Shown piece after piece: positions 12,216-29,045 of a DNA stretch of 64,000 nt; positions within the stretch are counted from its first letter, which is position 1; each line of letters starts with the position of its first letter. The notes below the pieces were generated by a model, which ran no database searches, was not told the DNA's origin, and saw nothing but the letters and a program-made list of their open reading frames with translations. Origin of the DNA: Gemmatimonadaceae bacterium (lineage in GTDB: Bacteria; Gemmatimonadota; Gemmatimonadetes; Gemmatimonadales; Gemmatimonadaceae); NCBI GenBank assembly GCA_019637445.1, contig JAHBVS010000003.1:1-64000 (forward strand), in the 5' to 3' direction. The translations under genes were made by a program, and so were the position numbers.

Positions 12216-12216
12216 C

Positions 12217-12255: not shown

Positions 12256-12388
12256 ACCTGGGTCGCGCGCCAAGGGACGAGCACCCGATTCGCCGTGGTG
12301 ATTCTCTTCAGAGCTTCAGCCTGTCCCCCGTAGCTTGCTCCTGTACCGAAGCGCATCCATCCAGGACTGACCGACGAGGGGAGTTGTC

Positions 12389-13882
12389 GTGCCGTACCGT
12401 ACGATCTGCAAGTTGTTCGCCCTCCTGCTGCTTCTCGCCCGACCTGGCGCGGCGCAACAGGCCGAGTCGCGGTATCACGAGGCGTTTCGGCGGCTGCACG
12501 AGGCCGGGATGTTCAATGGCGCCGTGCTCATCGCGAAAGACGACTCGATCGTGCTCGACGCCGCCTTCGGCGAATCGGATGTCACGACGCACACGCCACT
12601 GACCGACCGCTCGCTCTACCGCGCGGCCTCCGTGTCGAAGACGGTCACCGCGCTGGCACTGCTGACCCTCGTCGACTCAGGACGGCTGGACCTCGACGAT
12701 CCCGTGCAGCGCTACCTGCCGCGCTTTCCGTATCCGCAGACGACGCTGCGCCAACTGCTGCAGCACAGCAGTGGCCTCCCGGAGTACATCTTCGGCGTCG
12801 GCGACTATTGGTCCTCGCATACGGAGCCGATGACGGACGCGGCCGTGCTCCGGTGGCTCATCGACACGACGCCGGAGCTGGACTTCGCACCGGGGCAGGG
12901 CTGGGACTACTGCAACACGAACTACGCCCTCATCCCGCTCGTCATCGAGGCGGTGACTCGCGAACCGTACGCGGTGTACCTGCGTCGGGCGGTGCTCGAG
13001 CCGGCGGGAATGCGCAACAGCTTTCATCTGTCCGAGCTCGGGCCGCGCGAACGCGCGCGGCTCGCTGCCGGCCACGGCTTCGACTACGCCACCGGACAAG
13101 ACCTGCGCATCGATCGGCATCCCGTCCTCTCGGCGGAGTTCAACGCCGACAGTGTCTTCGGCGCAGGGGACCTCGTCTCGACGGCGCGCGACCTGTTCGC
13201 GCTGGACCAGGCGCTGAAGGCGGGGCAGGTGATCAGCCTCGAGCTGCAGGCGACAGCCTACACCTCAATGGTGCTGCCTGAGGGCTTCCCCGCGGGCTAC
13301 GGTCTGGGCTGGCAGGTGGCCGAGTCCGACTTCACCGGCCGCATCATCCATCACCACGGCCAGGGCGATGGCTATCGCACGCGGTACTATCGATTCCTTG
13401 ACCGCGGCATCACGATCATCACCTTGCAGAACGCGCGGGAGAAGTACGCCGACGATGCGGTGCGCGTGGCCCAGCTGCTCGCGTTCAAGGACAGCGCGGC
13501 GATGCCGATGCCCTCGCTGGCGGAGGCGTTGAGCCGGACGATGCACGCGGACGGCCTAGAGGCGACGCGCGCGCAGGTAGCCATGGCGGCGCAAGCGCCG
13601 GCCGCCTGGTCACTGAACGAGCGCGACCTCAACAACCTCGCCCTGACGTACTGGTTCAGCGGGCAGCGGGACAGCGCGCTCTCGCTCTTCACCAGCTATC
13701 TCTCGCTGATGCCCGATCGTCCCAGCGTCTACGCGACGCTCGCCGAGGCGCTGGCGGATGCGGGGCGCACCGAGGAGTCAAAGGCACGGTATGCAGAGGC
13801 GCTTGCGGTCGCACGTCGCGACGCACGGAAGTACGCCCGGGATATCGCGCGGCTAGAGAAGCTGCTCGCGGACGGACGCTAG
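12389..13882 (+). CDS. Secreted beta-lactamase-fold serine hydrolase with TPR-like C terminus
   Basis: The 497-residue protein has a Sec signal (ending GAAQQ) and a class C beta-lactamase/penicillin-binding-like domain: SxxK in 'ASVSKTVTAL' (about residue 73), YxN in 'YCNTNYAL', and HHHGQGDG in place of the usual HxG/KTG motif. Family members include esterases and D-aminopeptidases as well as beta-lactamases, so the substrate cannot be named. The C-terminal 90 residues contain alanine-rich helical pairs reminiscent of TPR repeats. GTG start after a GAGGGGAG site. Confidence 0.85.
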   Translation: MPYRTICKLFALLLLLARPGAAQQAESRYHEAFRRLHEAGMFNGAVLIAKDDSIVLDAAFGESDVTTHTPLTDRSLYRAASVSKTVTALALLTLVDSGRLDLDDPVQRYLPRFPYPQTTLRQLLQHSSGLPEYIFGVGDYWSSHTEPMTDAAVLRWLIDTTPELDFAPGQGWDYCNTNYALIPLVIEAVTREPYAVYLRRAVLEPAGMRNSFHLSELGPRERARLAAGHGFDYATGQDLRIDRHPVLSAEFNADSVFGAGDLVSTARDLFALDQALKAGQVISLELQATAYTSMVLPEGFPAGYGLGWQVAESDFTGRIIHHHGQGDGYRTRYYRFLDRGITIITLQNAREKYADDAVRVAQLLAFKDSAAMPMPSLAEALSRTMHADGLEATRAQVAMAAQAPAAWSLNERDLNNLALTYWFSGQRDSALSLFTSYLSLMPDRPSVYATLAEALADAGRTEESKARYAEALAVARRDARKYARDIARLEKLLADGR

Positions 13883-13883
13883 G

Positions 13884-13976
13884 GTGATGTTCACCAGACC
13901 CATTCCACGACCTCCCGCCTTGCGTTCGAGCCTCGCGCTGGTCGCCTGCGCCGTGCTCGCCACTGCCTGCGGCGGA
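13884..13976 (+). pseudogene. Truncated lipoprotein leader
   Basis: A GTG/ATG start opens a typical lipoprotein leader with lipobox (LATACGG), but the frame then runs into the antisense of the convergent protease gene, where it has no protein-like character. It looks like the 5' remnant of a lipoprotein gene once cotranscribed with the serine hydrolase just upstream. Confidence 0.35.
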
Positions 13977-15527
13977 CTAGGGGTCGCGCGATGCGCCTGT
14001 AGACCCAGTCGCTGCTTGCGAGAGCACGTACCGCATCAGGGGATCAAGCGTCAGCAGGAACTCGCGCCCATAGATGTCGCCTTCGTAGGTGGCGCGGCGA
14101 TGATAATCCTCGGCCGTCGGCCGGATCTCGACCTCCACCTCGTTGTGGGCGAAGTCCTCGAGACGTCCCACGGCGAGGAAGTCGAGCGCCGGCTCGACGC
14201 GAAACACCAGTCCCGTGTGATCGAGCTTGATGAACAGCGGCTCGATCTGCGATCCGCCCACGAGATCGGTGGCTGCCCCCACCGTGGTGAGCTGTGGGTC
14301 GCCGTTCGCGAACACGGCGAAGTTTGCCGCTGACGAGTAGATGTAGGCGTCGCGCAGGACATAGATGGGTCCGCGGAAGTCGAGCGAGATGGAGTCCGGT
14401 CCGAACCGGATCTCGTTGTCCAGGTATGGCCAGTAGCGTGCATTGCGCAGCTGTGGGACCGCTGTCGCGGGCCTCGCGTCCGCCCGGCCGTAGCGCGCGC
14501 GTGCCGAAGGGTTGTCCTTCATGCGCAGGTCGAGACGCATCGCGAGCTCGCGGCCGAGCAGGTGCCCCAGCACGCCTCGCCAGGTGAGGTCGCTGCCGCC
14601 AGGGTTTCCGCGGATGTCGATGGCGATGCGGTCGAACTGGGCGCCGCTGCGCACGAGGGCATCGACGCGCCCGTTAATGCTGTCCGCGAGCTCCACGTTC
14701 ATCATCGGCAGGCCGATGTAGAGCAGGCGCTGCGTCTCGAAGTACTCGACGCGATGGGTGGACTGCGAGGCGAAGCCAATCGCGTGTGCCCGCGGCGACA
14801 GCCAGCGCACGGAGTCCGCCATCTGCATCTCCAGCACGCGGCCATCGGCGAGCCCAAGGTGGAAGCCCTGGCCAGCCGCGCGATAGAACCGCAGGCTGTA
14901 CGGGATTCCGGCGTTGGACATCCGCAGTGGACGCACGACGTCGAGGTGGCCTTGGATGAAATCCGGGATCGTCTCGCCGTTGATGGTGGTCAGGACGGTC
15001 CCGCGCGACAGCCGTTCTCCGCGATACTCGATGTCGGCATAGACCACATACGCGCCGTCCACGAACACCAGTGGCAGGTCCAGGCGCTGCTCGGGCGCCG
15101 GACAGTGGCGCACGAGGGCCGCGACTCCCTCGTATGACTCGTCCTCCGCGATGTTGAGACGGCTCTGGTACCGTCCGTACTCGCGGAGATAGTCGTAGGA
15201 CATCGTCGACGCGTGCAGGTCCTGCACGAGGTTGATCGCGCGGCCGAGCAAAGCACTGAAGGCGCAGAGATCCGTGCCGGTGCCGATGGCCTGCCGCAAC
15301 GCGGCGAATCGGCGCTCGTAGTCGATGCCAAGCCGCACGGCATTCAAGTCGCGATGGACGGCAAAGGCGTTGATGAAGTCGATTGCTTGGTCGAAGTCTG
15401 CCTGCAACTCCGCAGTGGTGTAGGTCGGCTTCTGGTCGGGACGCGTGATCTCTGCTGCCTGTGCGGCCGACAGGCGAGGAAGCGTCGCGAGCAACGCGGC
15501 ACAGAAGACAATGGGCAGTCTGGGCAT
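13977..15527 (-). CDS. Secreted S41-family (tail-specific protease-like) peptidase
   Basis: A 516-residue protein with a Sec signal (LSAAQAAE). The S41 core is visible: 'FDRIAIDIRGNPGGSDLTWRG' (the strand and glycine loop of the oxyanion region), 'GPIYVLRDAYIYSSAANFAVF' with the nucleophile serine in the SSAA motif, and 'VGAATDLVGGSQ'. The N-terminal part is helical, as in Tricorn-core/CtpA-like secreted peptidases. It lacks an obvious PDZ domain. It may share transcription with the MBL-fold gene on the same strand 40 bp upstream. Confidence 0.82.
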   Translation of the reverse strand: MPRLPIVFCAALLATLPRLSAAQAAEITRPDQKPTYTTAELQADFDQAIDFINAFAVHRDLNAVRLGIDYERRFAALRQAIGTGTDLCAFSALLGRAINLVQDLHASTMSYDYLREYGRYQSRLNIAEDESYEGVAALVRHCPAPEQRLDLPLVFVDGAYVVYADIEYRGERLSRGTVLTTINGETIPDFIQGHLDVVRPLRMSNAGIPYSLRFYRAAGQGFHLGLADGRVLEMQMADSVRWLSPRAHAIGFASQSTHRVEYFETQRLLYIGLPMMNVELADSINGRVDALVRSGAQFDRIAIDIRGNPGGSDLTWRGVLGHLLGRELAMRLDLRMKDNPSARARYGRADARPATAVPQLRNARYWPYLDNEIRFGPDSISLDFRGPIYVLRDAYIYSSAANFAVFANGDPQLTTVGAATDLVGGSQIEPLFIKLDHTGLVFRVEPALDFLAVGRLEDFAHNEVEVEIRPTAEDYHRRATYEGDIYGREFLLTLDPLMRYVLSQAATGSTGASRDP

Positions 15528-15567
15528 CAGGGGCGTGGCGTGGAGGTCAAGGCAGGGTGGGCACGCA

Positions 15568-16995
15568 CTACCGAATGGGCAGGCGACGCATCGTCACCTC
15601 AAAGGGCTGCGTCCATTGCCCGTCCCCCGTTCCCGTCTCCACGAGCCAGGTCCAACTGCCATCCTCACGCGGACTGAAGCGCATGCGATTGAAGGCCTTC
15701 GCCCCGTCGCTGTCGAGGTAGTGCGTCCCCGGGCCGACGTTCGACACCAGCAGCGAGCCATCAGCCTCCCGTGTGCCCTCGAACACGTCGAGCAGTCCGG
15801 AGATCTGGTCGCGGGAGACGATGCGATATCGCGCCTGGACGTGGTCGTACGAGAACATCAGCTGATACTGGTAGCCGGAGGGAGCGGTGACCGTCGCGTC
15901 AATGTAGAGCCCGCCGAGCCCGAGCGTGATGTTCGCGTTCTCATAGCGTCCCACGAGGAACAGTAGCGGGCGCAGGCTGTCGCGCACAGCGGCAGTCGGA
16001 GGTGGCACTGGTCGCGTTGAGTCGGCGACGATGGTGGCGATCAACGCCGGGAGTTCGAAGCGCGCCATGCCCACGGCACCGATGCCGTAGTCGGCGCGCT
16101 GGGCCGTCTGCAGCGCGAGCAGCAGGAGCAACTGCCGCTTTGCGGGCATCGTGAAGTCGCCCGTGGCGCTTCGGTTCGTGGGGTCTGTCCCGACCAGCGC
16201 CGCCGCGGCGAGCATCGCGCGCAGCTGTTCGACGTTGTCGCCCACGACGCGGTCCAGCGGACGCGGACCGTAGTGTCCGGAGTACGCCGTGACCTCGCCC
16301 GGGTGGTCGGCGAGGATCTTCGGCAACGCGGCCAGGGCAGGCCGCGCAGTGGATGTCCCGACGTAGAACGTCGCGCCGTGGACCGTCGCGTCGCCCGTGA
16401 AGGCTGCCTTCATCTCCGGCACCCAAACCACGCTGTTGTTGGCCGCCTCCATCGGGCCGTAGTCCCGGATTACCATCGTGAGACCGGCGAGCCGCAGCGT
16501 GTCCCCCGAGGCGACGGTGCGGTCCACGCCGCGAAACTCGGCGTCGTACTCGTCGCCCAAGGCGCGCAGCCAGCCGCCGGGCACCATTCCCTCGTCGTGC
16601 ACCGCACGCATCGCGTCGGCCGTCGCTTGCGTGGCGATGACCGGCACGCCGGGGAAGGCTGCCCGGATGGTCGGGAGCCCGCCAAAGTGGTCGGCGTGTG
16701 GGTGCGTGATGATGACGGCACGCAGCGGCTTGCCCGACGCGCGCAGCGCGGCGACGAGGGCGCGTGCGTCGCGCCGCAGCATCAGCGCGTCGATGAGCAG
16801 CAGGCCGTCGGCGGTCTCGATCCACCAGGCGTTGGCGTCGTAGCCCTCAGCGGTCGCGACGGCGCGGTGCAGCAGCGGCCTGTCGCGCGAGGTCGTGTCG
16901 TTGCGCGGCGGCTGCTGGGCGGGCAGGGCGTTGGGGAGGAGGAACAGAATCGCGAGCGCCAGGACGCTCAAGCGGCGGCAGAATGGTGTAGGCAT
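15568..16995 (-). CDS. Secreted MBL-fold metallo-hydrolase
   Basis: A 475-residue protein with a signal peptide (ending LPAQQ) and an MBL-fold domain: zinc motif HPHADHFGG (about residues 98-106), a later 'FTGDATVHG' with the bridging aspartate, and 'YSGHYGPRP' with the last histidine. The C-terminal 120 residues form a beta-rich extra domain ('LFLVGRYENANITLGLGGLYIDATV'). The family covers many hydrolases (beta-lactamases, alkylsulfatases, lactonases), so the substrate is unknown. Confidence 0.85.
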   Translation of the reverse strand: MPTPFCRRLSVLALAILFLLPNALPAQQPPRNDTTSRDRPLLHRAVATAEGYDANAWWIETADGLLLIDALMLRRDARALVAALRASGKPLRAVIITHPHADHFGGLPTIRAAFPGVPVIATQATADAMRAVHDEGMVPGGWLRALGDEYDAEFRGVDRTVASGDTLRLAGLTMVIRDYGPMEAANNSVVWVPEMKAAFTGDATVHGATFYVGTSTARPALAALPKILADHPGEVTAYSGHYGPRPLDRVVGDNVEQLRAMLAAAALVGTDPTNRSATGDFTMPAKRQLLLLLALQTAQRADYGIGAVGMARFELPALIATIVADSTRPVPPPTAAVRDSLRPLLFLVGRYENANITLGLGGLYIDATVTAPSGYQYQLMFSYDHVQARYRIVSRDQISGLLDVFEGTREADGSLLVSNVGPGTHYLDSDGAKAFNRMRFSPREDGSWTWLVETGTGDGQWTQPFEVTMRRLPIR

Positions 16996-17113
16996 GCCGA
17001 TTCTTACGGGACACGGCGGCGCTCCGCCTCAGGCTGGCGATACCGTGGGATGAACGCCCGTCACTACGGTGCGAGTCGGCCGCCGCGACCTCAACGGCTG
17101 CCGCCGTTGCCGC

Positions 17114-17947
17114 CTACGCGTCGCCCAGCAACTCGCGCACCTCGGCCACGTAGCGCTCGCTCACCGCCACCGTGGCGCCGCCGCGCAGGCGTAGCGCATA
17201 CGTGCCGTCGCCCGTCACCTGCAGCGACCGACACTCGCGCCGCCGCACGATGTGCCGCCGGTGTACGCGCAGGAACTCGGCGGGGTCGAGCCGGTCGGCC
17301 AGCGCCGCCAAGGTCACGCGATGCAGTACCACTCGGCGCTCGAGGTGCAGCTCCGCATAGTTGCCGGCCGCCGAGATCCAGCGTACGTCTGCCACGCGGA
17401 CCACTTCGAGGTGCCCGACGGACTTCACGCTGAACCGTTGCAGGTAGCGCGAGGGCGCGGGCACGCCGTCCACCGCCGGCGCCGCCGTACCGGCATCGTC
17501 GAGGAATGCGCGCAGCGCCTCGCCGTACGCGGCCCCGGTGCGCAGGGCCAGCAGCGACTCCACGCGATGCAAGCCGCTGGCGAGCCGCGCGTCGTCAAAG
17601 GGCTTGATGAGATAGTCGATGGCGTGCAGCTCAAATGCCTCGACGGCGTGCCCTTCGTACGCCGTGACGAAGACGACGATCGGCGGCGCCGGGAGCTCGA
17701 TCAGATGGCGGGCGAGGACCAAGCCCGACGTGCGCGGCATCCGGATATCGAGGAAGACCACGTCCGGTCTCGAGTGCTCGATGGCCGCGAGCGCGGAGGC
17801 CGCGTCGGCGCAGGCGGCCAGCACCTGCCAACGCGGGAAGGCATCGAGGGCACGCTGGAGGTTCAGGCGGGCCAGCGGTTCGTCGTCGACGATGAGTGCC
17901 CGGATCGGCGCGTCGACAGGCGCCTTGGGCGTCGGCGTGTCAGTCAT
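17114..17947 (-). CDS. LytTR-family response regulator
   Basis: A 277-residue regulator. The receiver domain has 'ALIVDDEPLAR' (acid pocket), the phosphorylated aspartate in 'DVVFLDIRMP' and the lysine in 'YLIKPFD'. A linker leads to a LytTR DNA-binding domain ('VRVADVRWISAAGNYAELHLE', then 'FLRVHRRHIVRRRECRS'). The start ATG overlaps the end of the sensor kinase gene by eight bases, so the two form an operon and a cognate pair. Targets are unknown. Confidence 0.92.
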   Translation of the reverse strand: MTDTPTPKAPVDAPIRALIVDDEPLARLNLQRALDAFPRWQVLAACADAASALAAIEHSRPDVVFLDIRMPRTSGLVLARHLIELPAPPIVVFVTAYEGHAVEAFELHAIDYLIKPFDDARLASGLHRVESLLALRTGAAYGEALRAFLDDAGTAAPAVDGVPAPSRYLQRFSVKSVGHLEVVRVADVRWISAAGNYAELHLERRVVLHRVTLAALADRLDPAEFLRVHRRHIVRRRECRSLQVTGDGTYALRLRGGATVAVSERYVAEVRELLGDA

Positions 17948-19052
17948 CAATGCTGTGCGGCAGGATGAGCAGCACCTCAAAGCGGTCGTCGCGCTCGACG
18001 GTCTCCAGGGTTGCGCGTCCCCGGTACGCGGCCTCCACGCGTGCCTGCAGTGTGCGGAGTCCGACCCCCAAGCCGGGATTGGGGGGCGCGTCGGTCGGGA
18101 CAGAGTTCACAAGCCGGATCAGGCAGCGTTCCCCCTGCGACTCGCAGCGCACGTCGATGCTCGCCGTGCCCTCGCTGCGTTCCAGACCGTGCCGGATCGC
18201 GTTCTCCGCGAGCGGCTGCAGCAATAGGGGAGGCGACTCGAGGTCGTCCGGGATGCCGTCCAATCCGTCGTAGCGAACCTGCAGGCGCGTACCGAAGCGC
18301 AGTTGCTGCAGGCCAAGGTACTCGCGCAGGAACGACACTTCATCCGACAGCGGCACCCAGTCCTTGGCGACCGCCGTCGTCGCGTAGCGCAGCAGCCGGC
18401 TCAACTGCTGCAGCGCCGTCAGCGCCAGCGCGCGGTCGTCGCTGCGCACCAGCCCGGCGATGGCGTTCAGGGCGTTGTAGAGAAAGTGCGGCTCCAGTTG
18501 CGCGCGGAGGCCCTGCAGGCGCTGCTCCTCGAGCGCGAGCCGCAGCCGGAGATTCTCCTCGTGCAGGCGGCGTTCCAATGCGGCGTCGCGCCGTCGCGTA
18601 CTCACTGCAACCACGGCGTAGACTACGGCATTCGTCGCGAGCACAAGGCTGGCGTCGAGCAGGATGATCAGCGCAGGCAGCTGCCGCAGCGTGGGGAGGA
18701 TGGCCGAAAGCGTTACCGTGCCGTCGCTGAGGATCAGCACGGCTTGGTACGTCAACTCAAGCGCGAGGTACAGCGCGCTCACGAGGGCCACCGCCGCCCA
18801 GGGGCGCTTTGCCTGGCGATGAATCAGGTACAGCGCCGTCGCGAACGGCACGAAGGGCGCGTAGGCAATCCAGTAGCCGCGCAGCATGCCGGCGAGCGCG
18901 GGGGTCTGCCCGCGGTGCACGGCGTCGCTCCACGCCGAGAGGGCGTGGACGCTGGCGACGGCGCCCCAAACGGCCAGGTTGGCGAGCAACGTCCGGCCGA
19001 GCGAGGGCAGGCTGAGGGGCGCGGCGTTCGTGCGCGGTGCGGGTGCGGACAT
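17940..19052 (-). CDS. LytS/YehU-type sensor histidine kinase
   Basis: A 370-residue kinase with four to five predicted transmembrane helices in the first 150 residues and no obvious periplasmic sensor domain. The His_kinase domain carries 'LRAQLEPHFLYNALNAIAGL' with the phosphorylated histidine, and the ATPase domain has the N box ('PLAENAIRHGLERS') and G box ('GLGVGLRTLQARVEA'). This is the architecture of kinases paired with LytTR regulators, and the partner overlaps its 3' end. The signal sensed is unknown. Confidence 0.92.
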   Translation of the reverse strand: MSAPAPRTNAAPLSLPSLGRTLLANLAVWGAVASVHALSAWSDAVHRGQTPALAGMLRGYWIAYAPFVPFATALYLIHRQAKRPWAAVALVSALYLALELTYQAVLILSDGTVTLSAILPTLRQLPALIILLDASLVLATNAVVYAVVAVSTRRRDAALERRLHEENLRLRLALEEQRLQGLRAQLEPHFLYNALNAIAGLVRSDDRALALTALQQLSRLLRYATTAVAKDWVPLSDEVSFLREYLGLQQLRFGTRLQVRYDGLDGIPDDLESPPLLLQPLAENAIRHGLERSEGTASIDVRCESQGERCLIRLVNSVPTDAPPNPGLGVGLRTLQARVEAAYRGRATLETVERDDRFEVLLILPHSIDD

Positions 19053-19217
19053 CAGGGGTTCAAGCTACGCCATTCTATAGTAGAGGGTGGCGGGGAGACG
19101 GGGCCAATCGCCGATGCGGTGGGACGAACGTGCCCGTGCGGGAGTCCTTGGCGTCGGTGGCGGAAGTGTGGCGAGCCCGTAGAATTGCGGGGGTGGGGCG
19201 AGACCTTGGAGGGTGGA

Positions 19218-19709
19218 ATGCGAAGAGGGGAGTCGATGCTGCCGGAGTTCGACCAAGAGATGGCCACGACGCGTCGGCTGCTCGAACGCGTGCCAAGCGA
19301 GCACATGGCGTGGCGGCCGCATCCGAAGTCGTTCCCGCTCGGCCACCTGGTGCAGCTCATTTGCCGCATGCCGGGTTGGATCACGAATGCCCTCACCGAC
19401 GACAGTCTCGACCTCGCAGCGGGGAAGGGCTACTCCTTCGAGACCCTGGCCACGCTGCTCCAGGAGTTCGATGGCAACGTGAATCAGGCGCGCACAGTCC
19501 TCGCCGAGACTTCGGACGCCCATCTCGACACGGAGTGGTCGCTCCGCATGGGAGACCGCACGCTGTTCACCTCGCTCCGAGGGGCGGTGGTCCGCCAGAC
19601 CATCAGCCACTTGGTGCACCACCGCGGGCAGCTCAGTGTGTACCTGCGGCTGCTCGACGTGCCGCTGCCGTCGATCTACGGTCCGACCGCTGACGAGCGG
19701 ACATTTTGA
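19218..19709 (+). CDS. DinB-family (DUF664-like) protein
   Basis: A 163-residue four-helix-bundle protein with the conserved metal-site histidines of DinB-like proteins: 'PLGHLVQLI' in helix 2 and 'TISHLVHHRGQLSVYLRLL' near the C terminus. The family includes thiol-dependent transferases (bacillithiol or glutathione S-transferases), but most members have no known activity. ATG 19218 follows GGAGGG; ATG 19236 is also possible after GAGGGGAG. Divergent from the kinase gene. Confidence 0.85.
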   Translation: MRRGESMLPEFDQEMATTRRLLERVPSEHMAWRPHPKSFPLGHLVQLICRMPGWITNALTDDSLDLAAGKGYSFETLATLLQEFDGNVNQARTVLAETSDAHLDTEWSLRMGDRTLFTSLRGAVVRQTISHLVHHRGQLSVYLRLLDVPLPSIYGPTADERTF

Positions 19710-19827
19710 ACTCGTGGGCGCGCGAGGCGCCGTGCCCGGTGACCATTTCGTCCGCCGAAGGGTATGGCGGGTATCCCCGGCCGAGGAGAGGCGCCTGCGC
19801 CAGCATCTCCAGTTCCCCCCGCGTCAG

Positions 19828-20187
19828 GTGCGCACGCAGGTCACGCTCCTGTCCGTGATCGTCATGCTCTTCGGGTGCGCTCCAGAGCGGGCCCTGGGTC
19901 CGGCGGCTCCGTCGCGCGCCGAGGCGGTCGCGAGTGTGGTCCCGGAGTCGATGCAGGCGCCCGCCCCGACCATCATCGTCTGCCAACGCTTCGCCGTTCG
20001 TGACACGCTGCATCTCGTCGACGGGAAGATCGTGTCGGCGAACACCGCGCGCGCACGGATCAAGCAGGGACGGGTGCAGGTCGATACGCTGCGCGGAGCT
20101 GCCGCCGTTTCGCTCTACGGGTCGAGGGGCGCGCTGGGGGCGATTGTCGTGACCACGCGCGAGAGCGGGCGCGCAGCGACACGCTGA
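19828..20187 (+). CDS. Small lipoprotein with TonB-receptor plug-like C terminus
   Basis: The 119-residue product has a hydrophobic leader and lipobox (VMLFGC). The end, 'AAVSLYGSRGALGAIVVTTRES', closely resembles the close of a TonB-dependent receptor plug domain (the S-x-YG-x-RGA-x-G-x-I-x-x-T pattern), but there is no barrel. Such plug-only lipoproteins occur in Gemmatimonadota and Bacteroidota and may dock to a partner. A GTG start is assumed. A decayed attC overlaps its stop codon, so it may be a former cassette gene. Confidence 0.55.
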   Translation: MRTQVTLLSVIVMLFGCAPERALGPAAPSRAEAVASVVPESMQAPAPTIIVCQRFAVRDTLHLVDGKIVSANTARARIKQGRVQVDTLRGAAAVSLYGSRGALGAIVVTTRESGRAATR

Positions 20188-20258
20188 CTCGGCCTAGGCC
20201 AGGCTGATTGCGGCAGCTTCGCCGCGGCAGCTTATTTGAGCGGCCACCGCCGAGCAAT
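20186..20258 (+). other. attC relic far outside the array
   Basis: CTTATTTGAGCGGCCACCGC followed by CGAGCAA matches the right half of attC 7 (CTTATTTGAACGGCCACTGC, then TGAAGCAA) with only four differences. GGCCTAGGCC at 20190-20199 matches the arm of attC 3. The left core box and the GTT are gone, so it is inactive. It lies 8.6 kb beyond the array end. Confidence 0.7.
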
Positions 20259-20291
20259 GCGGTGGTAGGACCTGTCGCCCGGGAGGCTGCC

Positions 20292-20558
20292 GTGTTCTCG
20301 CTCATACTCATCGTCGGTATCATCGCCATGGTGATCAGCGCGCGCCGGTTCGCCGCGCGGAAGGAGCGCGAGGGCACCTGGGATCGCAACGGACCGCTGC
20401 ATCCGACGACGGGGCCGATGCTGGCCTCCGAGATCTTCGACAGCGGGCTCCGCCGCGCCTGGGAGCACCAGCACGGACCCGAAGGCACGCACTTGCCGTA
20501 CGCGCGCGAGATGCCGCCCATCGTTCCGCCGCTGGATGACGACAACGCGCCACGCTAG
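20292..20558 (+). CDS. Small single-helix membrane protein
   Basis: An 88-residue protein with one N-terminal transmembrane helix (about residues 2-18) followed by a basic stretch (SARRFAARKERE) and a proline-rich soluble tail with an HQHGPEGTH segment. GTG 20292 is chosen because it has a strong GGGAGG site six bases upstream. No family is recognised. Confidence 0.6.
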   Translation: MFSLILIVGIIAMVISARRFAARKEREGTWDRNGPLHPTTGPMLASEIFDSGLRRAWEHQHGPEGTHLPYAREMPPIVPPLDDDNAPR

Positions 20559-20708
20559 TGGGACGCGCATCCGGAACGCATCCGGACGGAGGTCTGCTAC
20601 CTCGTGGAACGCGTCGCCCCCGGCCTGGCGCAGTGAATCAACACCTCATGACGCGAACCGGCCACGTCTGGCGAGCTCCACTCGACGCGCAGGGAATCCA
20701 CGCGAACT

Positions 20709-21125
20709 GTGAACACCACAAGGACGCCCCACGTGCACGCTGATGTCCAGCGCTACAACGCCACGCAATCGCCCAACCACCAAGTCCTCTGCGAGCTACT
20801 GGCCGCGGAGATCGACAAGGCCCTGCCCACGGCCGAGAACAAGATCTGGCACGGCCACCCCGTGTGGTTCCTCGACGACAATCCCATCGTCGGCTACAGC
20901 CGACAGAAGCCGGGCATCCGATTGATGTTCTGGAGCGGCGCCGATTTCGACGAGGAGGGACTCGACGTCGTCGGCAAGAAGTTCAAGGACGCCTCGGCGT
21001 TCTTCAACGACGTCGCCGAGGTGAGGAAGACGCTGCTGCGGCGCTGGCTCAAGAAGTCGCGCGAGATCCAGTGGAATTACCGGGACATCGTCAAGCGCAA
21101 AGGGCGGCTCGAGCGGCTACGCTGA
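20709..21125 (+). CDS. DUF1801-family protein
   Basis: A 138-residue soluble protein with the DUF1801 (YdhG-like) pattern: 'LCELLAAEIDKALPTAENKIWHGHPVWFLDDNPIVGYSRQKPGIRLMFWSGADFD', an alpha/beta fold of unknown activity. The C terminus is strongly basic (KKSREIQWNYRDIVKRKGRLERLR). The start is GTG; no close ribosome binding site is seen. It appears monocistronic. Confidence 0.75.
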   Translation: MNTTRTPHVHADVQRYNATQSPNHQVLCELLAAEIDKALPTAENKIWHGHPVWFLDDNPIVGYSRQKPGIRLMFWSGADFDEEGLDVVGKKFKDASAFFNDVAEVRKTLLRRWLKKSREIQWNYRDIVKRKGRLERLR

Positions 21126-21179
21126 CGGCCGTGCGGCGCTTCGGGCGAGTCGCTCTCGCTTGCACTCGCAAGCCGCGCC

Positions 21180-23141
21180 TCAGCGGATCCCCAACTCCGC
21201 GCGCGCATCCGCCGGCAACAATGGAATCAACTGCCGCACCGGCACCGCGAACCCATACTGCCGCTGCCCCTGCGCCAAGGCCTCGCGCAGGCCGGCCCGA
21301 TGCACCCCGACCACCTCGCCGTCGGCATTGAACAGCGGACTGCCACTCGAGCCACCCACCGAGAAGCCGTTGAATCGCAGCTCGTCGCTGGTGACCTGCG
21401 CAAAGATGCCCGCGCTCATCGACGTGCGTACCGCACCGGTCGAGAAGTCGTAGGCCAACGACGCGCCGGCTGGATACCCAATCATCGCCGCCGACTCGCC
21501 CTGCTTGGCGCGTGTGCCGCTCCAGTCGATCTTCGGGATCACCGGGCCGCCGTAGTCGCGGATCCTGAGCAGCGCGAGATCGGGTGTATCGCCGGTCGGC
21601 AAACTGACGACCTCGGCGCGCAGCCGCTGGTTGGTATCCGCCAATCGCACGAACAATGAGTCCGCCGGTTTCCCGTTGTCCGTCGCCACGTGGCGATTGG
21701 TGACGAAATAGCCGGAGCGCGTGAGCACAAAGCCCGAGCCGTCCCAGACCTCGCTGCCGCCGTAGCCGGTGACCATCCCGACGGCCGGCCCCGCCGCTTG
21801 CGAGATGGCCGCGAGGTTCACGGACTTCACCGCGCGCACCTGGTCGGAGATGGCGGCGCTGCGTTCCTCCTGACTGCGGATGGCGCTGCGCAGGCTGTCG
21901 AGCAGGCCGCGCGAGGCGCGGGCCTCGCGTTCGCTGCCGCTGGCGACGCGCGCGCTCGCTGCGGCCAACTCATCGCGCAGGCGATTGAGTTCGTCGAGCG
22001 ATTGGCGCTGCGCCGAATCGCCGGCGGCGAGCTGTTGGCTGAGCGCGAGCTCGGCGCGCTGCAGGGCGCCCTCGAGCGCGGTCGTCTTCTCCGACGCTGC
22101 GGCCAGGGCGACTCGCTGTTCCTCGAGCTGGCGCGCGGTGAGGCGCTGCTGTTGGTCCGTCCACCAATAGAAGCCCGCCACCGAGGCGGACATCAAGGCG
22201 ACAAACGACCACACCGTCACGCGCAGGCGTGAGGCGCTCTTGCGGCTCGACTCCTCGATCATGCCGCGCAGCATCATCGTCTTGCCTTGCGGGGCGGCGG
22301 CCGCTGCGTTTGCCACGTGCGCGGCGGAGCGCGCGCCTGCGGAGCCGGCAGCGGCCGGGCGCGGGGACTGCGCTGCATCGGCGACTGCCGGAGGGAGCTT
22401 CAGGACCTCGACGAGCAACTCCGGCCCGCCAGGGCCCAGCGCGATGCGATCGCGCAGCTTGAGCTCGTGGTCGCCCGTGACGGGCTTCGCGTTGAGCTGA
22501 GTGCCATTGCTGCTCTTCAGGTCACGCAACAGCACGCGCCCATCCGGCGCGAGGACGATCTCGGCGTGCACGCGCGAGACGGCCGAATCGCCCGCCTGCC
22601 GCGGTTGCACTTCGCACTCCTCGCCGCGGCCGAGGCGGATGCGACCGCCGCGCGCGGGATAGCGGTTCCCGGTGCGCACTTCCTTGAGCACGAGTTCAAG
22701 CGTCGGGGAAGCGGGAGACGCCGCGGCTGATGCAGCGGCAGGCGCAACCGCAGGTGCCGAGCGCGCCGCGCTGGGAGCGCCCGCCGGTCCCGCCGCGCCA
22801 TCCTCGGCAATCGTCTCCGCGATGCGCCGGTTGCGCAGCCCATCGACCCGGAACTCCGGGCCACGCTCTCCGAGCCGCAGCAGCGCGCCGACATCGATTG
22901 GCTGCGGCGCGTTCGCCCCCAGCCGCTGCCCGTTGAGCGAGGTCCCGTTGCGGCTGCCGAGGTCCTCGATCATCCAGCGCCCGTCACGCTGGAACAGCCG
23001 CGCGTGGAATCCGGAGACGACGCCAGCCCCATCGCCCTCGATGACGACCGCACAGTCCGGATCACGCCCGAGGCGCAGCTCGTCCGACGCGAACTCTTGG
23101 ACGGTGCCGGTGCGCATATCGCGAAGCGAGAGCAGCGTCAC
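21180..23141 (-). CDS. Membrane protein with two FHA domains, coiled coil and trypsin-like serine protease domain
   Basis: This 653-residue protein has FHA domain 1 (about residues 1-95, 'LGRDPDCAVVIEGDG...VSGFHARLF...DLGSRNGTSLNG'), an alanine-rich linker, FHA domain 2 (about 140-235, 'RIRLGRGEECEV...VSRVHAEI...DLKSSNGTQLNA'), one transmembrane helix (about residue 300, 'VWSFVALMSASVAGFYWW'), a coiled coil, and a trypsin/Deg-like protease with His in 'TNRHVAT', Asp in 'DLALLRI' and Ser in 'GGSSGSPLF'. FHA domains bind phosphothreonine, so cytosolic kinase signals could control an extracytoplasmic protease. GTG start at 23141, chosen just before the first FHA strand. Confidence 0.85.
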   Translation of the reverse strand: MTLLSLRDMRTGTVQEFASDELRLGRDPDCAVVIEGDGAGVVSGFHARLFQRDGRWMIEDLGSRNGTSLNGQRLGANAPQPIDVGALLRLGERGPEFRVDGLRNRRIAETIAEDGAAGPAGAPSAARSAPAVAPAAASAAASPASPTLELVLKEVRTGNRYPARGGRIRLGRGEECEVQPRQAGDSAVSRVHAEIVLAPDGRVLLRDLKSSNGTQLNAKPVTGDHELKLRDRIALGPGGPELLVEVLKLPPAVADAAQSPRPAAAGSAGARSAAHVANAAAAAPQGKTMMLRGMIEESSRKSASRLRVTVWSFVALMSASVAGFYWWTDQQQRLTARQLEEQRVALAAASEKTTALEGALQRAELALSQQLAAGDSAQRQSLDELNRLRDELAAASARVASGSEREARASRGLLDSLRSAIRSQEERSAAISDQVRAVKSVNLAAISQAAGPAVGMVTGYGGSEVWDGSGFVLTRSGYFVTNRHVATDNGKPADSLFVRLADTNQRLRAEVVSLPTGDTPDLALLRIRDYGGPVIPKIDWSGTRAKQGESAAMIGYPAGASLAYDFSTGAVRTSMSAGIFAQVTSDELRFNGFSVGGSSGSPLFNADGEVVGVHRAGLREALAQGQRQYGFAVPVRQLIPLLPADARAELGIR

Positions 23142-23334
23142 GCGGGGAGGGCTCCGGGGCGGGAAGGGAGGGAGGGGAGCGAGGGGAGGGACGCGGTGGA
23201 AGACTGTCCCAAGATGCGGCGCACTGGTCGGAGCGGATAGGGCGGACGGCCGACTGCCCCTCGCCGCCGGATTGGGCCATCTTTCGGGCCACCGCGCGCG
23301 AGTGCGTGCGGACCCCCACCTCTGTCGTCCGCAC

Positions 23335-25569
23335 GTGATCTCTCTTCGCTCCCTCGCGGCCATCGCCCTCCTGGCGTTGGCGCTCGGCCCGGCCGCTGAC
23401 GCCCAGTCGGTGACGATGACCGGCCCCGGTGGCCGCAGTGGCCGCGCGACGGTCGTCAGCGTGGCCCCTACCATAGATGGGCGCCTCGATGACGAGGCCT
23501 GGCAGCAGGCCACGGTGTTCACGGATTTCGTGCAGCGCGAGCCCGTCGAGGGCAATCCGGTCAGCGAGCGCACGGAGGTGCGCATCGTCACGGACGGCGT
23601 GGCGCTGTATGTGGCGGCCTGGCTCTACGACCGCGAGGCGGCGTTGATCGTCCCCAGCGAGACGATCCGCGACGTGACCCTGACGAACAGCGATTACTTC
23701 GCGTTCATCCTCGACACGTATCACGACCGGCAGAACGGCTTCCTCTTCGGCACCACGCCCTCGGGGATCGAGCACGATGCGCAGGTGATTCGCGAGGGTG
23801 AGGGCGGGGGCGTGTTTGTGGCGGGGCAGAGCCGCGCGCAGGCGGGCTCGTTGGGTGGCGTGAACCTGAACTGGGACGCCAACTGGACCGTGCGCACCTC
23901 GCGCGACGGCGAGGGCTGGTACGCCGAGTTCCGCGTACCGTTCTCGACGCTGCGCTACGGCGGCGGGGCGACGCAGACCTGGGGCCTGAACCTGATGCGC
24001 GGCATCCGGCGCCGGAACGAGGAGGCGCTGTGGTCGCGCGTGTCGCGGCAGTTCAGCATCAACCGGCTCTCGCAGGCGGGCACACTGGAGGACCTCGCCG
24101 TGCCCGCGCAGCGTATCGCCACCGTGACGCCGTACGTGCTCGGCAACTCGGCGCGCAACTACACCACGCAGTCGGCGTTCCGCGGCACCGGTGAGTTCGG
24201 CGTGGATGCCAAGTACGGCATCACGCCCAGCCTGACGCTGGATCTCACGTACAACACCGACTTCGCGCAGGTCGAGGTGGACGAGCAGCGCACGAACCTC
24301 ACGCGATTTCCGCTGTTCTTTCCTGAGAAGCGGCCCTTCTTCCTGGAGAACGCCGGCGTGCTCTCGGCGGGCACGCCGCAGGCCGTGGACCTGTTCTTCA
24401 CCCGACGCATCGGCATCGACTCGCTGGGCCAGCCCGTGCCGATCCTCGGCGGCGGTCGGCTTACGGGGCGCGTGGGCGGACTGACGGTCGGCGCCCTGGC
24501 GATGGTCACCGACGCGCAGAACGGCGTCGAAGGCAACGGCTACGGCGTGCTGCGCCTGCTGCGCGAGCTCTCGACGCGCTCGCGCGTCGGCGTGATGGCC
24601 GTGCAGCGCCAGCGGCGCGGCGACGGCGGCGACTTCAATCGGGTACTCGGCGTGGATGCGCGCGTCGGGATCGGGCAGGACTGGACGGCCGATGCCTGGG
24701 CCGGCCACTCGGAGACCCCGGGTCTCACAGGCGATCCCTACTCGTGGAGCGGCCGCGTGGCCTACGAGACGCGCGACTGGCGGCACTCGGTGCGCGTGCT
24801 GCAGGTGGGCGATGCGTTCAATCCCGAGGTGGGCTTCATGGCGCGGCCCGCCGGGTATCGCTTCGACGAGTTGATGTTGATGCGGTTGGTGCGCAATCCC
24901 TCGTGGCGGCACGTGCGCGAGTGGAACCCGCACATCAGCCTGCGCCGCTACGTGGGCACGGACGGATTCCTGCAGTCGTCGTGGGCGCACATCGACGTCA
25001 CCGAGGTGCAGTTCAATGGCGGTGGTCGATTCGGGCCCGACATCAATGTGTACACGGAAGGCCTGCAGGTGCCGTTCGAGATTGCGCCGGGCGTGATCCT
25101 GCAGCCGGGCCAGTATGCGTTCTCGGTGCCGGGCCTCGACTGGGGCTCGGATCCCAGTGACGCGATCTCCTTCCTCGCGCGCCTCGAGGCCGGCCAGTTC
25201 TACTCGGGCACGAAGACCGGCGGCAACGTGGCCATCACGGCACGGCGCGGCGCGGCGTTCTCCTCGACGCTGACGCTGGACCACCAGGACGTGGACCTGC
25301 CGGAGGGCGACTTCGTCCGCGATTTGATTGGCCTCAAGCTCGCGTACTTCTTCACGCCGCGGATCTTCGTGCAGTCGCTGACACAGTACAACAACCAGGC
25401 GGAGGTGTTCACGGCGAACGTGCGACTGGGTTGGTTGAGCACGGCGAACACGGGCCTGTTTGTGGTGCTCAACGATGGCGAAGAGGCGGAGGGCTTCACG
25501 CGGTGGCGGCGACCCTTGGCGCGCTCGGTGACGGTGAAGTATTCGTACCAAGTGGGAGCAGCGAGGTAG
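23335..25569 (+). CDS. DUF5916 outer-membrane protein with N-terminal CBM9-like domain
   Basis: A 744-residue protein with a signal peptide (ending AADAQS), then a family 9 carbohydrate-binding-like domain ('APTIDGRLDDEAWQQATVFTDFVQREP...VRIVTDGVALYVAAWLYDR', residues about 35-230), then the DUF5916 region, including the family hallmark 'FPLFFPEKRPFFLENAGV' (about residue 330) and amphipathic beta strands to the end. The family is probably an outer-membrane barrel common in Bacteroidota and Gemmatimonadota; its substrate is unknown. GTG 23335 is 193 bp from the divergent FHA-protease gene. Confidence 0.85.
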   Translation: MISLRSLAAIALLALALGPAADAQSVTMTGPGGRSGRATVVSVAPTIDGRLDDEAWQQATVFTDFVQREPVEGNPVSERTEVRIVTDGVALYVAAWLYDREAALIVPSETIRDVTLTNSDYFAFILDTYHDRQNGFLFGTTPSGIEHDAQVIREGEGGGVFVAGQSRAQAGSLGGVNLNWDANWTVRTSRDGEGWYAEFRVPFSTLRYGGGATQTWGLNLMRGIRRRNEEALWSRVSRQFSINRLSQAGTLEDLAVPAQRIATVTPYVLGNSARNYTTQSAFRGTGEFGVDAKYGITPSLTLDLTYNTDFAQVEVDEQRTNLTRFPLFFPEKRPFFLENAGVLSAGTPQAVDLFFTRRIGIDSLGQPVPILGGGRLTGRVGGLTVGALAMVTDAQNGVEGNGYGVLRLLRELSTRSRVGVMAVQRQRRGDGGDFNRVLGVDARVGIGQDWTADAWAGHSETPGLTGDPYSWSGRVAYETRDWRHSVRVLQVGDAFNPEVGFMARPAGYRFDELMLMRLVRNPSWRHVREWNPHISLRRYVGTDGFLQSSWAHIDVTEVQFNGGGRFGPDINVYTEGLQVPFEIAPGVILQPGQYAFSVPGLDWGSDPSDAISFLARLEAGQFYSGTKTGGNVAITARRGAAFSSTLTLDHQDVDLPEGDFVRDLIGLKLAYFFTPRIFVQSLTQYNNQAEVFTANVRLGWLSTANTGLFVVLNDGEEAEGFTRWRRPLARSVTVKYSYQVGAAR

Positions 25570-25574
25570 CGTCG

Positions 25575-25958
25575 ATGCCGATTCACTATCGGATCGATCC
25601 GACGACGCAGACCGTCTATGAGACCTGGACGGGCACGGTCAACGCCGAGCAACTCGGTGCGTACTGGAGCGCGAGCCTGCGCAAGGACGAGTTTCTCACC
25701 TGCGGCAAGACGATTGCGGACGTGCGCGCGGCGGACGTCGAACTTGTCGGGGCGGACCTGCAAGTCCTCATCCAGGGCATCGCCGTTCCCCTGCTGGCGG
25801 GGCGGAGATGGCTCACGGCCGTGGTGGTGGCGTCGCCCTCTCAGTTCGGCACGGCGCGTCAGTATGAGGTATTCTCCGAAGTGTTCAGTACGGGCGGCAT
25901 CTTTCATGATCTCGAGAGCGCCGAAGCGTGGCTGGCGGCGCAGTCGGAAGGCAGATGA
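25575..25958 (+). CDS. SpoIIAA/STAS-like small protein
   Basis: A 127-residue protein that fits the SpoIIAA-like fold seen in small 'STAS/SpoIIAA-like' proteins: N-terminal strand pair 'IDPTTQTVYETWTGTVNAEQL', central helix-strand units ('KTIADVRAADVELVGADLQVL') and C-terminal 'ESAEAWLAAQ'. Role unknown. It begins five bases after the DUF5916 gene and its TGA overlaps the ATG of the cupredoxin gene, so the three are probably cotranscribed. Confidence 0.6.
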   Translation: MPIHYRIDPTTQTVYETWTGTVNAEQLGAYWSASLRKDEFLTCGKTIADVRAADVELVGADLQVLIQGIAVPLLAGRRWLTAVVVASPSQFGTARQYEVFSEVFSTGGIFHDLESAEAWLAAQSEGR

Positions 25959-26422
25959 GAGCGCAGGCTCGCACGAGACCCGGCTGGGCCTTACCGCTTG
26001 CGTTGGTGGCTCTCACGGTGACGGCGGGTGAGGCGATGATGGCGTCTCCGGCACCCGCGGCGGCGCCGATGGGCTCGCGCGACGGCGCCGCGGCCGAGGT
26101 GCGTGTCGTGATGCGTGGCCAGCGCTTCTTCCCCGCGCGCGTGGAATCCACGGTCGGCGACACAGTTGTGTTCGTGCTGGAATCCGGCGCGCCGCACAAC
26201 GTGGCCTTTGAGCGGGACTCGATTCCGGCGGGCGCGCTCTCGCCGCTCGCGCGTGCGCTCGGGGGAGACGAGAAATACCTCTTCTCGAAGGACATGGTGC
26301 TGATTCCCGGAGAGACGATCGCGGTGGCAACCGCGGAACTGCCGCCTGGCCGCTATGTGTTCTACTGCGCGCCACACTACGGCGGCGGGATGCGCGGCGA
26401 GCTCGTACTACGCGCGCGTTGA
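25955..26422 (+). CDS. Secreted cupredoxin (plastocyanin/azurin-like)
   Basis: A 155-residue protein with a signal peptide (ends near GEAMMASPA) and a single cupredoxin domain. Type 1 copper ligands are visible: His in 'SGAPHNVAF', Cys and His in 'YVFYCAPHYGGGM' and the final Met. Such periplasmic proteins shuttle single electrons. Its partner is not shown by context, although cytochromes and copper enzymes lie within the window. The ATG overlaps the preceding stop codon. Confidence 0.88.
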   Translation: MRAQARTRPGWALPLALVALTVTAGEAMMASPAPAAAPMGSRDGAAAEVRVVMRGQRFFPARVESTVGDTVVFVLESGAPHNVAFERDSIPAGALSPLARALGGDEKYLFSKDMVLIPGETIAVATAELPPGRYVFYCAPHYGGGMRGELVLRAR

Positions 26423-26480
26423 CGCGGATGCATTGACGCGGCTGCATTGACGCGGCTGCCGGTCGCCGCGTAGCAGCAAA

Positions 26481-26519
26481 GCGGGGCGCGTCGGCGATTC
26501 CTTCGCCCACGCGCCCCGC
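26481..26519. terminator. Hairpin between convergent genes
   Basis: GCGGGGCGCGT (26481-26491) and ACGCGCCCCGC (26509-26519) form a perfect 11-bp stem with a 17-base loop between two convergent genes. There is no T-tract, so it may act as a bidirectional or Rho-assisted end. Confidence 0.6.
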
Positions 26520-26538
26520 AGTCTCATCCGAGCTCGTG

Positions 26539-27252
26539 CTACTCCAGCCCCAACGCCCGCAGCACCTCCGGTGGCGGCGGATCCCACTTGGGCAGGGCCG
26601 TATTCCCGATGTACCCGATGTCGCGCATGCCCGCATCCGTCGTATAGAACGCCGTGGACACCAGGTTCCGCACCAGCGAGAAGAACCGCGCCCCGGTGCG
26701 ATGCTCGGGCTTGGCCTTCGGCAGGTAGCAGATGTCATCGCAGATGGCGGTGCGCTGCGCCGCCGTGATGCGATGGAACGGCGCGCCATACCGCTGCTGG
26801 CTCTCGATGTTGATCCAACTCACGCCGCCGCGCACCCGTACGAGGTCGCGGGCGTAGTTCTCACCCGGCGCGCTGACGTGCTCGTTGATGTACTGGTGCG
26901 CGCCGACCGCCGTGGCGCTCGGCGACTTGGCATCCGCGGGGATGATGGTGTCCGCCAGCGCGGCCAGCGTCGTCATCTCGGCCGCCGTGAGCAGGCGCGG
27001 CCAGTCCTTCTTGGGTCGGATGAGGTCCGGATCCCAAGCATCGCCGCGCGGGACGCCGGGCGCCGGCTGTCGTCCTTGCTGGCCCTGCGCGGGACGCGCC
27101 GCTGCCGCGCCTTGTCCCTGCGCGCCTGCCTCGCTCGGCGCGCCGAGTACGGGCAGCGCCGCCGCGGTGGCAATGACCTTGAGCGCCTCGCGACGCTTCA
27201 TGCCGTCCTTCGCGTCCCCGGTTTCCGTGGGGTGCCTCGGAGTGTCACTCAT
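26539..27252 (-). CDS. Gluconate 2-dehydrogenase subunit 3-family protein (Tat-exported)
   Basis: A 237-residue protein with a Tat-type signal ('MKRREALKVIATAAALPVLG' after a short lead). The subunit 3 domain is recognised by 'LTAAEMTTLAALADTIIPADAKSPSATAVGAHQYINEHVS' and the end 'FYTTDAGMRDIGYIG'. In known enzymes this small subunit carries the Tat signal for its flavoprotein partner, which lacks one. Here the ATG overlaps the stop of the upstream GMC gene, consistent with a complex. The substrate is an unknown sugar or alcohol. Confidence 0.88.
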   Translation of the reverse strand: MSDTPRHPTETGDAKDGMKRREALKVIATAAALPVLGAPSEAGAQGQGAAAARPAQGQQGRQPAPGVPRGDAWDPDLIRPKKDWPRLLTAAEMTTLAALADTIIPADAKSPSATAVGAHQYINEHVSAPGENYARDLVRVRGGVSWINIESQQRYGAPFHRITAAQRTAICDDICYLPKAKPEHRTGARFFSLVRNLVSTAFYTTDAGMRDIGYIGNTALPKWDPPPPEVLRALGLE

Positions 27253-29045
27253 CAGCCGATCTCCCGCGTGCGCAGCTGCTCGAGGATGTAGTCCGTGGTG
27301 CGCCAGGCCAGCGCGAGGATGCTCAGCGTGGGGTTCTTGTCCGCGTTCGACACGAAGGGCGCGCCGTCGGTGACGAAGAGATTCTTCACGTCCCACGACT
27401 GGCAGTACTCGTTGAGCACGCTCGTGCGCGGGTCGCTGCCCATGCGGCAGGTGCCGACCTCGTGGATGATCTGCCCGCCGCGCGCAATCGCCCGGTTGCC
27501 GTCCGTCTGCGGCTCGGAGCTCGGCGTGCCGCCCATCGACCGGATGATCTCGGCGAAGGTCTTCTGCATGTGCACGGCCTGCTTGAGCTCGTGGTCGCTC
27601 CACTTCCAATGGAAGCGCAGCACCGGGATGCCCCACTGGTCGACCGTGTCGGGGTCGATCTCGCAGAAGCTGTCCTCGTTGGGGATCATCTCGCCGCGGC
27701 CATCGAACCAGACGTAGGTGCCATAGTGGCGACGCGCGGCTTCCTTGAACTTCGTGCCGTAGGAACCCTCGGTGAGGTTCTCGAGGAAGTTGAAGCTGCC
27801 GTTGCCCGGCATCCCGCGCCCACCGCCGAACTCGATGTGATAGCCGCGCGCGAAGTCGAGCTTGCCGCTCATCTGATCCTTGTAGCCCCACCACGGCATG
27901 TAGAGGTGCATGCCCGAGGCGCCGTCGTTGTTGTGCGGCGGCAGGCCCTCGAGGGCAGGGATGCGGCCGCCCAGTCCGGCGCCGACCGTGTCCATCAAGT
28001 ACTTGCCGACGAGCCCGCTGGAATTGGAGACGCCGTTGGGATTCCGTGAGCTCTTGGAGTTAAGCAGGATGCGCGCGGTCTCGGCGGCGCTGGCCGCCAA
28101 CACGACGACGCGCGCCGAGACGTGCCGGTCCTGGCGCGTGCGCTTGTCGATGTAGCTCACGCCCGTGGCCTTGCCGTCGGGGCCGACGCTGACCTCGCGC
28201 ACCATCGCGTCGGTAATGACGCTGACGTTGCCCGTGGCCACGGCCGGCGGCAGCAGCACCGTGGTGCTCTGGAAGTTGGCCTTGATCGAGCAGCCCCATC
28301 CGCAGGGCGTGGCGTAGAAGCAGGCCTGCCGCGAGCGCATCGACTCGGCGAGCACGCGCTGCGCGAGCGGATTGTTGGGGAAGAGGCGGCGGGGAAGGCG
28401 ATCCGCATCCTGCCGCTGCGTCATGATCGCGAGGTGCGCCGGGATTGTCGGGATGCCCAAGCCGGTGGCGTGCTTGTGTACGAGCCGCTCGACAGCGCGC
28501 GGCTCGGGCGCCGGCATCAGGACGCCGGGTGACGAGCGCGGGGTGTTCTCGAGGTCATCGTCGCCGCCGTAAACGCCGATGAGCATCTCGGTCTTGTCGT
28601 AGTACGGCGCGAGGTCTTCATATGAGAGGGGCCAGTCGGCACCCAGTCCGTCGCGGGTCTTGGGCTTGAAGTCGTACTCGCCCATGCGCAGCGAGATGCG
28701 GCCCCAGTGGTTGGTGCGGCCGCCGAGCATTCGCGAACGCCACCAGAGGAAGGAGCTGCCGGGCGCGGTGGTGTAGGGTTCGCCGGGGACTTCCCAGCCG
28801 CCATCGACCGTGGCGTCGTAGAAGCCGAAGGGCTTCTCGCGGCTGCCGGCGCCGCGCAGTGGGGCCTCGCGCGGCAGCTTGAACATCGGCGTCTCACGCG
28901 TGGGATCGTAGTTCCGGCCCGCTTCGAGCACGAGGACCTTGAGGCCGGCCACGCCGAGCTGGAAGGCGGCCATGCCACCCCCCGCGCCGGAGCCGACGAT
29001 GATGACGTCGTAGCTGTCCTGCGACTTCGCGGCACTGCTGGTCAC
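27252..29045 (-). CDS. GMC-family FAD-dependent oxidoreductase (large subunit)
   Basis: A 597-residue flavoprotein. The FAD-binding fold opens with 'YDVIIVGSGAGGGMAAFQLG' (about residue 12), followed by 'VLVLEAG'. The C-terminal GMC domain contains 'EVGTCRMG' and 'NLFVTDGAPFVSNADKNPTLSILALAWR' with the catalytic histidine/asparagine region. There is no signal peptide, so export is expected as a complex with the Tat-bearing subunit 3. GTG 29045 is chosen because GGAG lies five bases upstream. Electrons may pass to the diheme cytochrome encoded divergently. Substrate unknown. Confidence 0.88.
   Translation of the reverse strand: MTSSAAKSQDSYDVIIVGSGAGGGMAAFQLGVAGLKVLVLEAGRNYDPTRETPMFKLPREAPLRGAGSREKPFGFYDATVDGGWEVPGEPYTTAPGSSFLWWRSRMLGGRTNHWGRISLRMGEYDFKPKTRDGLGADWPLSYEDLAPYYDKTEMLIGVYGGDDDLENTPRSSPGVLMPAPEPRAVERLVHKHATGLGIPTIPAHLAIMTQRQDADRLPRRLFPNNPLAQRVLAESMRSRQACFYATPCGWGCSIKANFQSTTVLLPPAVATGNVSVITDAMVREVSVGPDGKATGVSYIDKRTRQDRHVSARVVVLAASAAETARILLNSKSSRNPNGVSNSSGLVGKYLMDTVGAGLGGRIPALEGLPPHNNDGASGMHLYMPWWGYKDQMSGKLDFARGYHIEFGGGRGMPGNGSFNFLENLTEGSYGTKFKEAARRHYGTYVWFDGRGEMIPNEDSFCEIDPDTVDQWGIPVLRFHWKWSDHELKQAVHMQKTFAEIIRSMGGTPSSEPQTDGNRAIARGGQIIHEVGTCRMGSDPRTSVLNEYCQSWDVKNLFVTDGAPFVSNADKNPTLSILALAWRTTDYILEQLRTREIG

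Follow-up and report, generated by a model that had tools for sequence, protein, structure and literature searches.

The segment at 20191-20257 of the window, i.e., the whole 64-kb stretch of DNA analysed here, is confirmed by sequence comparison to be derived from an attC recombination site, with significant similarity to the attCs of the integron in the same genome. It is a dead half site, which has neither a left half nor an R' core and has lost the attC fold. The small lipoprotein-like gene directly in front of it is best explained as a former gene cassette whose attC, of the attC7 subtype, lost its left half, so that the gene became fixed in the chromosome. We give this explanation a probability of about one half. 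The features concerned are listed in Table 1.

Table 1. Positions of the relic, the neighbouring genes and the sites and elements used for comparison (window coordinates unless a contig or a stretch is named)
Feature	Position	Strand	Basis or remark
Lipoprotein-like gene, 119 aa, GTG start, proposed former cassette gene	19828-20187	+	stop codon at 20185-20187
Half attC relic: apical loop GGCCTAGGCC and right arm to the L' box (GCAA); attC7 subtype, R' core lost	20191-20257	+	alignment
Terminator-like hairpin from the self-complementary right arm, then CAGCTTATTT (T-rich tail)	20208-20227	+	one found; shuffles, mean 0.3
88-aa ORF, start about 30 bases downstream of the relic; might be the next cassette gene	20292-20558	+	no family
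attC13, the decaying final whole attC of the array	10919-11051	+	102.9 bits; has CGGCCACCGCCGA in common with the relic
Left-end relic of a further attC (attC14), subtype of the relic; overlaps the stop of the ORF at 11068-11529	11526-11551	+	score 32
attC sites away from the integron	C1:1061193-1064788, C1:1699130-1699266, C2:144394-149761, C2:382505-385435		covariance model, nine in total
SMR gene cassette, G072	L165, preceding attC 8246-8380, stop 8829-8831		PF00893, E 3.7e-26
IS110/IS1111-type-bearing stretches	L161, L165, L168, L169 (G072); L170-L172, L174-L177 (G049)		
IS481-type elements in the attC loop, G072	L164 15725-16877, L168 8284-9437, L167 6990-8168		

The window comprises the initial 64 kb of contig C3; the genome has 3.35 Mb in seven contigs. 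The integron integrase is encoded on contig C2 (622959-623900; TIGR02249, 394.8 bits) and is followed by four attCs, which reach the end of that contig. Thirteen more attCs lie on the plus strand of the window at 532-11051, and we infer that C2 continues into C3. Outside the integron, nine attCs (E<=4e-4) were found at four places in this genome. In the genus, attCs are present in at least 12 of 17 genomes and the integrase in 11 of 17. The near-complete genomes G072 and G049 have large attC arrays at several distant places and one integrase over the cut-off each. Among the matches listed, the arrays are found on C1 at 2.335-2.41, 3.121-3.156 and 1.337-1.343 Mb in G072, and on C1 at 0.65, 0.757-0.784 and 2.538-2.595 Mb in G049. 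Cassettes away from the integron are therefore usual here, judging from the nine dispersed attCs and the distant attCs of these two genomes. A weak further attC was seen at C1:1065140 (E 0.07), and the comparison of 1-26000 of the window with Rfam gave no match at the gathering threshold.

The 26 attCs of this genome were aligned by the Smith-Waterman method to both strands of 11101-64000, and the relic was the top match with a score of 68. The maxima from 100 dinucleotide shuffles of the same sequence had a mean of 35.7 (sd 3.1), the largest being 49, and the reversed real sequence reached 33. By extrapolation from the shuffles, we put the chance of such a match in a sequence of this length at roughly one in a million. 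The best partner is C2:625753-625890, an attC of the same integron located about 1 kb from the end of the integrase-bearing contig; its positions 62-129 of 138 align with the relic at 55 of 67 identical bases and one gap. The score was 59 against attC7 and likewise 59 against C2:144394, which is of the same subtype, and 36 against attC2. The three live sites of the attC7 subtype show 2 to 5 mutual differences per 68 columns in this part. The relic is far more diverged than these sites are among themselves, and it is therefore old. Of the seven CCTAGG loop motifs in the window, six belong to attC1, attC3 (twice), attC7, attC9 and attC12, and the remaining one to the relic. The second-best place in the real sequence (score 48) was 35418-35467 on the minus strand, which matched the inner arm only. 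It is a GC-rich palindrome resembling the inner arm of an attC, lacks attC ends, and its score lies within the range of the shuffle maxima (up to 49).

The preliminary description had proposed an attC relic at this position, and the alignment, the shuffles, the fold and the distribution of CCTAGG support it. The match to the right half of an attC was borne out; it spans 20227-20257 in the comparison with attC2, extends over 20193-20257 with attC7, and includes substitutions and a one-base gap. An arm had also been matched to attC3, and GGCCTAGGCC does occur there, but in the relic these bases form the apical loop of an attC7-subtype site and are in register with the right arm. The stop codon of the lipoprotein gene, said to be overlapped by the relic, abuts on it instead, as the homology starts three bases past the stop. 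Thus, the ORF ends just before the attC remnant on the same strand. For ten cassettes of the array, whose ORFs were chosen by hand, the position of the stop codon relative to the attC start ranges from 21 bases within the site to 30 bases ahead of it.

The right end of an attC consists of L' and of R' with the core GTTRRRY. In the relic, L' is recognisable as far as GCAA, but the position of GTT reads differently, and the R' core of a functional attC is thus absent. The left R''/L'' end (TAACGACGCTTGCAGC) of a functional attC was not found at the relic within 20090-20190. The left halves of the attCs reached a score of 26 against the same interval, which is background, being attained by 143 of 3000 control slices and by 808 of 3000 with laxer scoring. 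The bottom-strand attC fold was also absent, with z values against shuffles of -0.84 for 20135-20266 and -1.28 for 20186-20266; for comparison, whole sites gave -7.81 (attC7) and -4.56 (the decaying attC13). The hairpin formed by the right arm may plausibly serve as the terminator of the lipoprotein gene.

The whole-genome attC covariance search at a relaxed threshold, which the preliminary description had suggested as a check, did not recover the relic: it is missing from the list of model R1 at E<=10. This model was built from the 13 attCs of the window and needs both ends of the site. In 11060-30000 with filters off, the relic scored 11.2 bits with R1, the third best and below two other places. 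The covariance test is blind to the relic because it requires both attC ends, whereas alignment to the right subtype detects it. When 19700-20330 was used to search the own genome at the DNA level, no attC was among the 40 candidates scored out of 99 first-look ones. One match from this search, at C1:1693531-1693596 (76% to 20140-20206, E 2.3e-5), looks like the coding sequence of an unrelated gene. A tiny attC remnant seen by eye at about 12220-12258 was unsupported (R1 12133-12257, 10.4 bits, E 0.27).

In the product of the lipoprotein-like gene, we read VIVMLFGC as a putative lipoprotein signal. Its C-terminal part carries a SusC/RagA signature (TIGR04057, E 4.1e-9, residues 84-111), which is below the curated cut-off of that model, and comparison with the PDB found SusC homologues at E 0.01. 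No Pfam family was matched at E<=0.01, and the predicted structure had a mean pLDDT of 36.1, too low to use. Matches were found in 53 of 59 family genomes, own included (E<=0.001), and among the matches listed they were mostly the plug part of long receptors. A scan of the genome contigs gave one partial relative (44%) and listed no full-length one. The matches listed in 178 other family genomes included one partial match and no full-length relative (E<=5e-7). The latter result is expected of an accessory gene and was counted in favour of a former cassette. It also means that the relatives cannot decide the matter: the preliminary description would have been contradicted by the lipoprotein gene and the relic at the same place in relatives that have no integron, and no such case was found in these 178 genomes.

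The lipoprotein gene is read as a former cassette mainly on account of a parallel case in G072. We analysed 18 stretches (355 kb) of the same-genus genomes G072 and G049, chosen around their attC arrays. These contained 186 model matches at E<=0.01, some of which are opposite-strand echoes of one site. By their end motifs, whole sites numbered 85 in G072 and 81 in G049, and 24 and 30 partial matches, respectively, lay outside them. Most partial matches are paired halves around insertions, and a few halves are partnerless (L161 13985-14013, L163 12362-12403, L177 19019-19052, L165 8841-8912 and L171 6814-6845). The one at L165 8841-8912 of G072 follows the stop codon of an SMR gene, corresponds to positions 64-135 of a 139-base attC, and has more attCs behind it. 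A left half is absent before it, the best score there being 18, which was reached by 458 of 500 control slices. From its position inside the array, the SMR gene is clearly a cassette with a left-truncated attC. Both in the relic and in the SMR cassette, the whole left arm is lost up to the apical loop.

We propose the following course of events. A deletion would have removed the left half of the attC together with a few bases behind the stop codon of the lipoprotein gene, and the R' core would have decayed afterwards. A site without its left half would be unable to form the hairpin needed by the integrase, and the gene would thereby be fixed in the chromosome, where the leftover right arm may now act as its terminator. 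This explanation is supported by the alignment and shuffles, the CCTAGG motif, the fold, the stop codon three bases before the homology, and the SMR parallel. Several observations argue against it. No attC remnant was found upstream of the gene (19701-19830; best score 17-19), and the 18 array stretches of G072 and G049 yielded no cassette related to the lipoprotein; one match of 39 residues (E 0.06) was obtained there. Moreover, the genes intervening between the array and the relic are on both strands and not cassette-like, R1 misses the relic, and an orphan left end at 11526 requires a separate explanation. The claim in the preliminary description that the gene is a domesticated cassette thus remains the best-supported reading, helped by the SMR parallel, but neither an upstream attC remnant nor a 5' border came to light.

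The relic is real, but the phenomenon is of a known kind, namely the partial loss of an attC that gives fused cassettes. Such cassettes are described in PMC4670013, and there, as here, the coding region is kept, the attC behind it is partly lost, and the gene and its neighbour stay together. However, the pair described there lies inside an active class 1 integron, whereas the relic is 8.6 kb beyond the array and has lost the R' core too. The relic also resembles CALINs, clusters of attC sites lacking an integrase (PMC8618304, PMC12444791), in being an attC-derived sequence away from the integrase. According to PMC12444791, a CALIN requires at least two attC sites with no neighbouring integrase; here one half site is present, and the integrase is in the same genome. 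The case is a small, well-supported example of a mobile cassette gene immobilised by the loss of one arm of its recombination site, and the SMR case in another species points to a path taken more than once. Half sites escape models of whole attCs, and the cassette-derived share of the chromosome may thus be underestimated.

The orphan left end mentioned above overlaps the stop of a DUF5990 gene. Of 20000 control slices (50 bases each), 5 equalled its score, and 116 did so with laxer scoring; its best matches are attC7 and C2:144394, i.e., the subtype of the relic, and no right half was found behind it. It is conceivable, though rather unlikely, that this left end and the relic are the two halves of one attC, the last of the array (attC14), broken apart with 8.64 kb (11552-20190) between them. 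The two orphan halves are on the same strand, in the right order and of the same subtype, and split sites are common in the array stretches of G072 and G049. Every one of the 17 full-length IS110/IS1111-type transposase genes there sits between paired attC halves (17 pairs), close to where the right arm ends. Three further pairs enclose IS481-type genes in the apical loop, which are inserted at CCTAGG or CCTAGC and have this motif on either side. However, neither half contains positions 29-61 of the site, and halves with no partner are no rarity in these relatives. Three transposases of the relatives had no match in the window (E<=1e-5), the IS ends fit neither junction, and the right break just behind a stop codon would be a coincidence.

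IS1111-attC elements target and split attCs, according to PMC11187229, and the half sites left are, as here, in the same orientation; at the relic, in contrast, there is no IS or IS end. In the array stretches taken, the IS481-type copies with at least 42% identity number seven; three are in an attC loop, and the other four are outside attCs, mostly also at CTAG motifs. In the literature on IS481, attC and integrons, no paper title dealt with IS481 insertion in attCs, as judged by title. On the splitting of attCs by IS1111-attC elements, PMC11187229 also cites Tetu and Holmes (2008). The apical loop contains CCTAG in 8 of 26 sites of this genome, 32 of 85 of G072 and 29 of 81 of G049. We suggest, quite tentatively, that the apical loop is a preferred breaking point of attCs in this genus, both for the landing of IS481-type elements and for the loss of left arms. 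Breakage at this point would then fix cassettes in the chromosome time and again, and in the present case it may also have allowed 8.6 kb to separate the halves of one attC. One attC of G049 (L175 13611-14964) is interrupted twice, once after about position 26, where 1.25 kb carrying a reading frame for an rve-like transposase intervene, and once by an IS110/IS1111-type element.

The preliminary description had left two options, an array that once reached 20 kb or the insertion of a cassette by the integrase at a secondary site. The latter would mean that the single lipoprotein cassette was placed at a non-att site close to the array, with later decay of its attC. This is rather unlikely, although the presence of an integrase (394.8 bits) and the dispersed attCs at four places speak for it, and off-target insertion has been proposed as one of the ways in which CALINs arise (PMC8618304). 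No trace of a 5' border was found, and loss of the left half is still required. The relic has the orientation of the array and lies 8.6 kb past its decaying end, which appears to fit the tail of the same array better. The dispersed attCs nevertheless keep the secondary site in consideration. That the stretch is merely the terminator of the lipoprotein gene and attC-like by chance is very improbable, because the similarity, despite the hairpin with its T-rich tail and the low R1 score, covers 67 bases including the loop and the arm beyond the hairpin, and 0 of 100 shuffles came near the score.

Counterparts of the MBL-LytTR-HK block that separates the array from the relic occur in G064 and, less strictly ordered, in G069; the stretches taken there contain no attC (E<=0.1). 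Therefore, either ordinary chromosomal genes came to lie in between, or the relic itself changed place. The occurrence of the block in G064 also counts against the reading as a former cassette. Within 11100-26000, the DUF5916 gene (23.4-25.5 kb) has DNA-level counterparts in ten other genomes for most of its extent, and in G059 for part of it. In six stretches around this gene, nothing else of 10.9-45 kb of the window matched. DUF1801 (20742-21125) occurs in 3 of 16 other genus genomes in different surroundings, and the FHA/trypsin gene has distant relatives only (up to 35%). For these reasons, no empty site could be demonstrated. For the beta-lactamase-family gene at 12389-13882, which follows shortly after the array, the closest DNA relative within the genus is found in G069 (L116 9840-11345); it too has an attC at a distance of about 1.3 kb, but in the opposite orientation.
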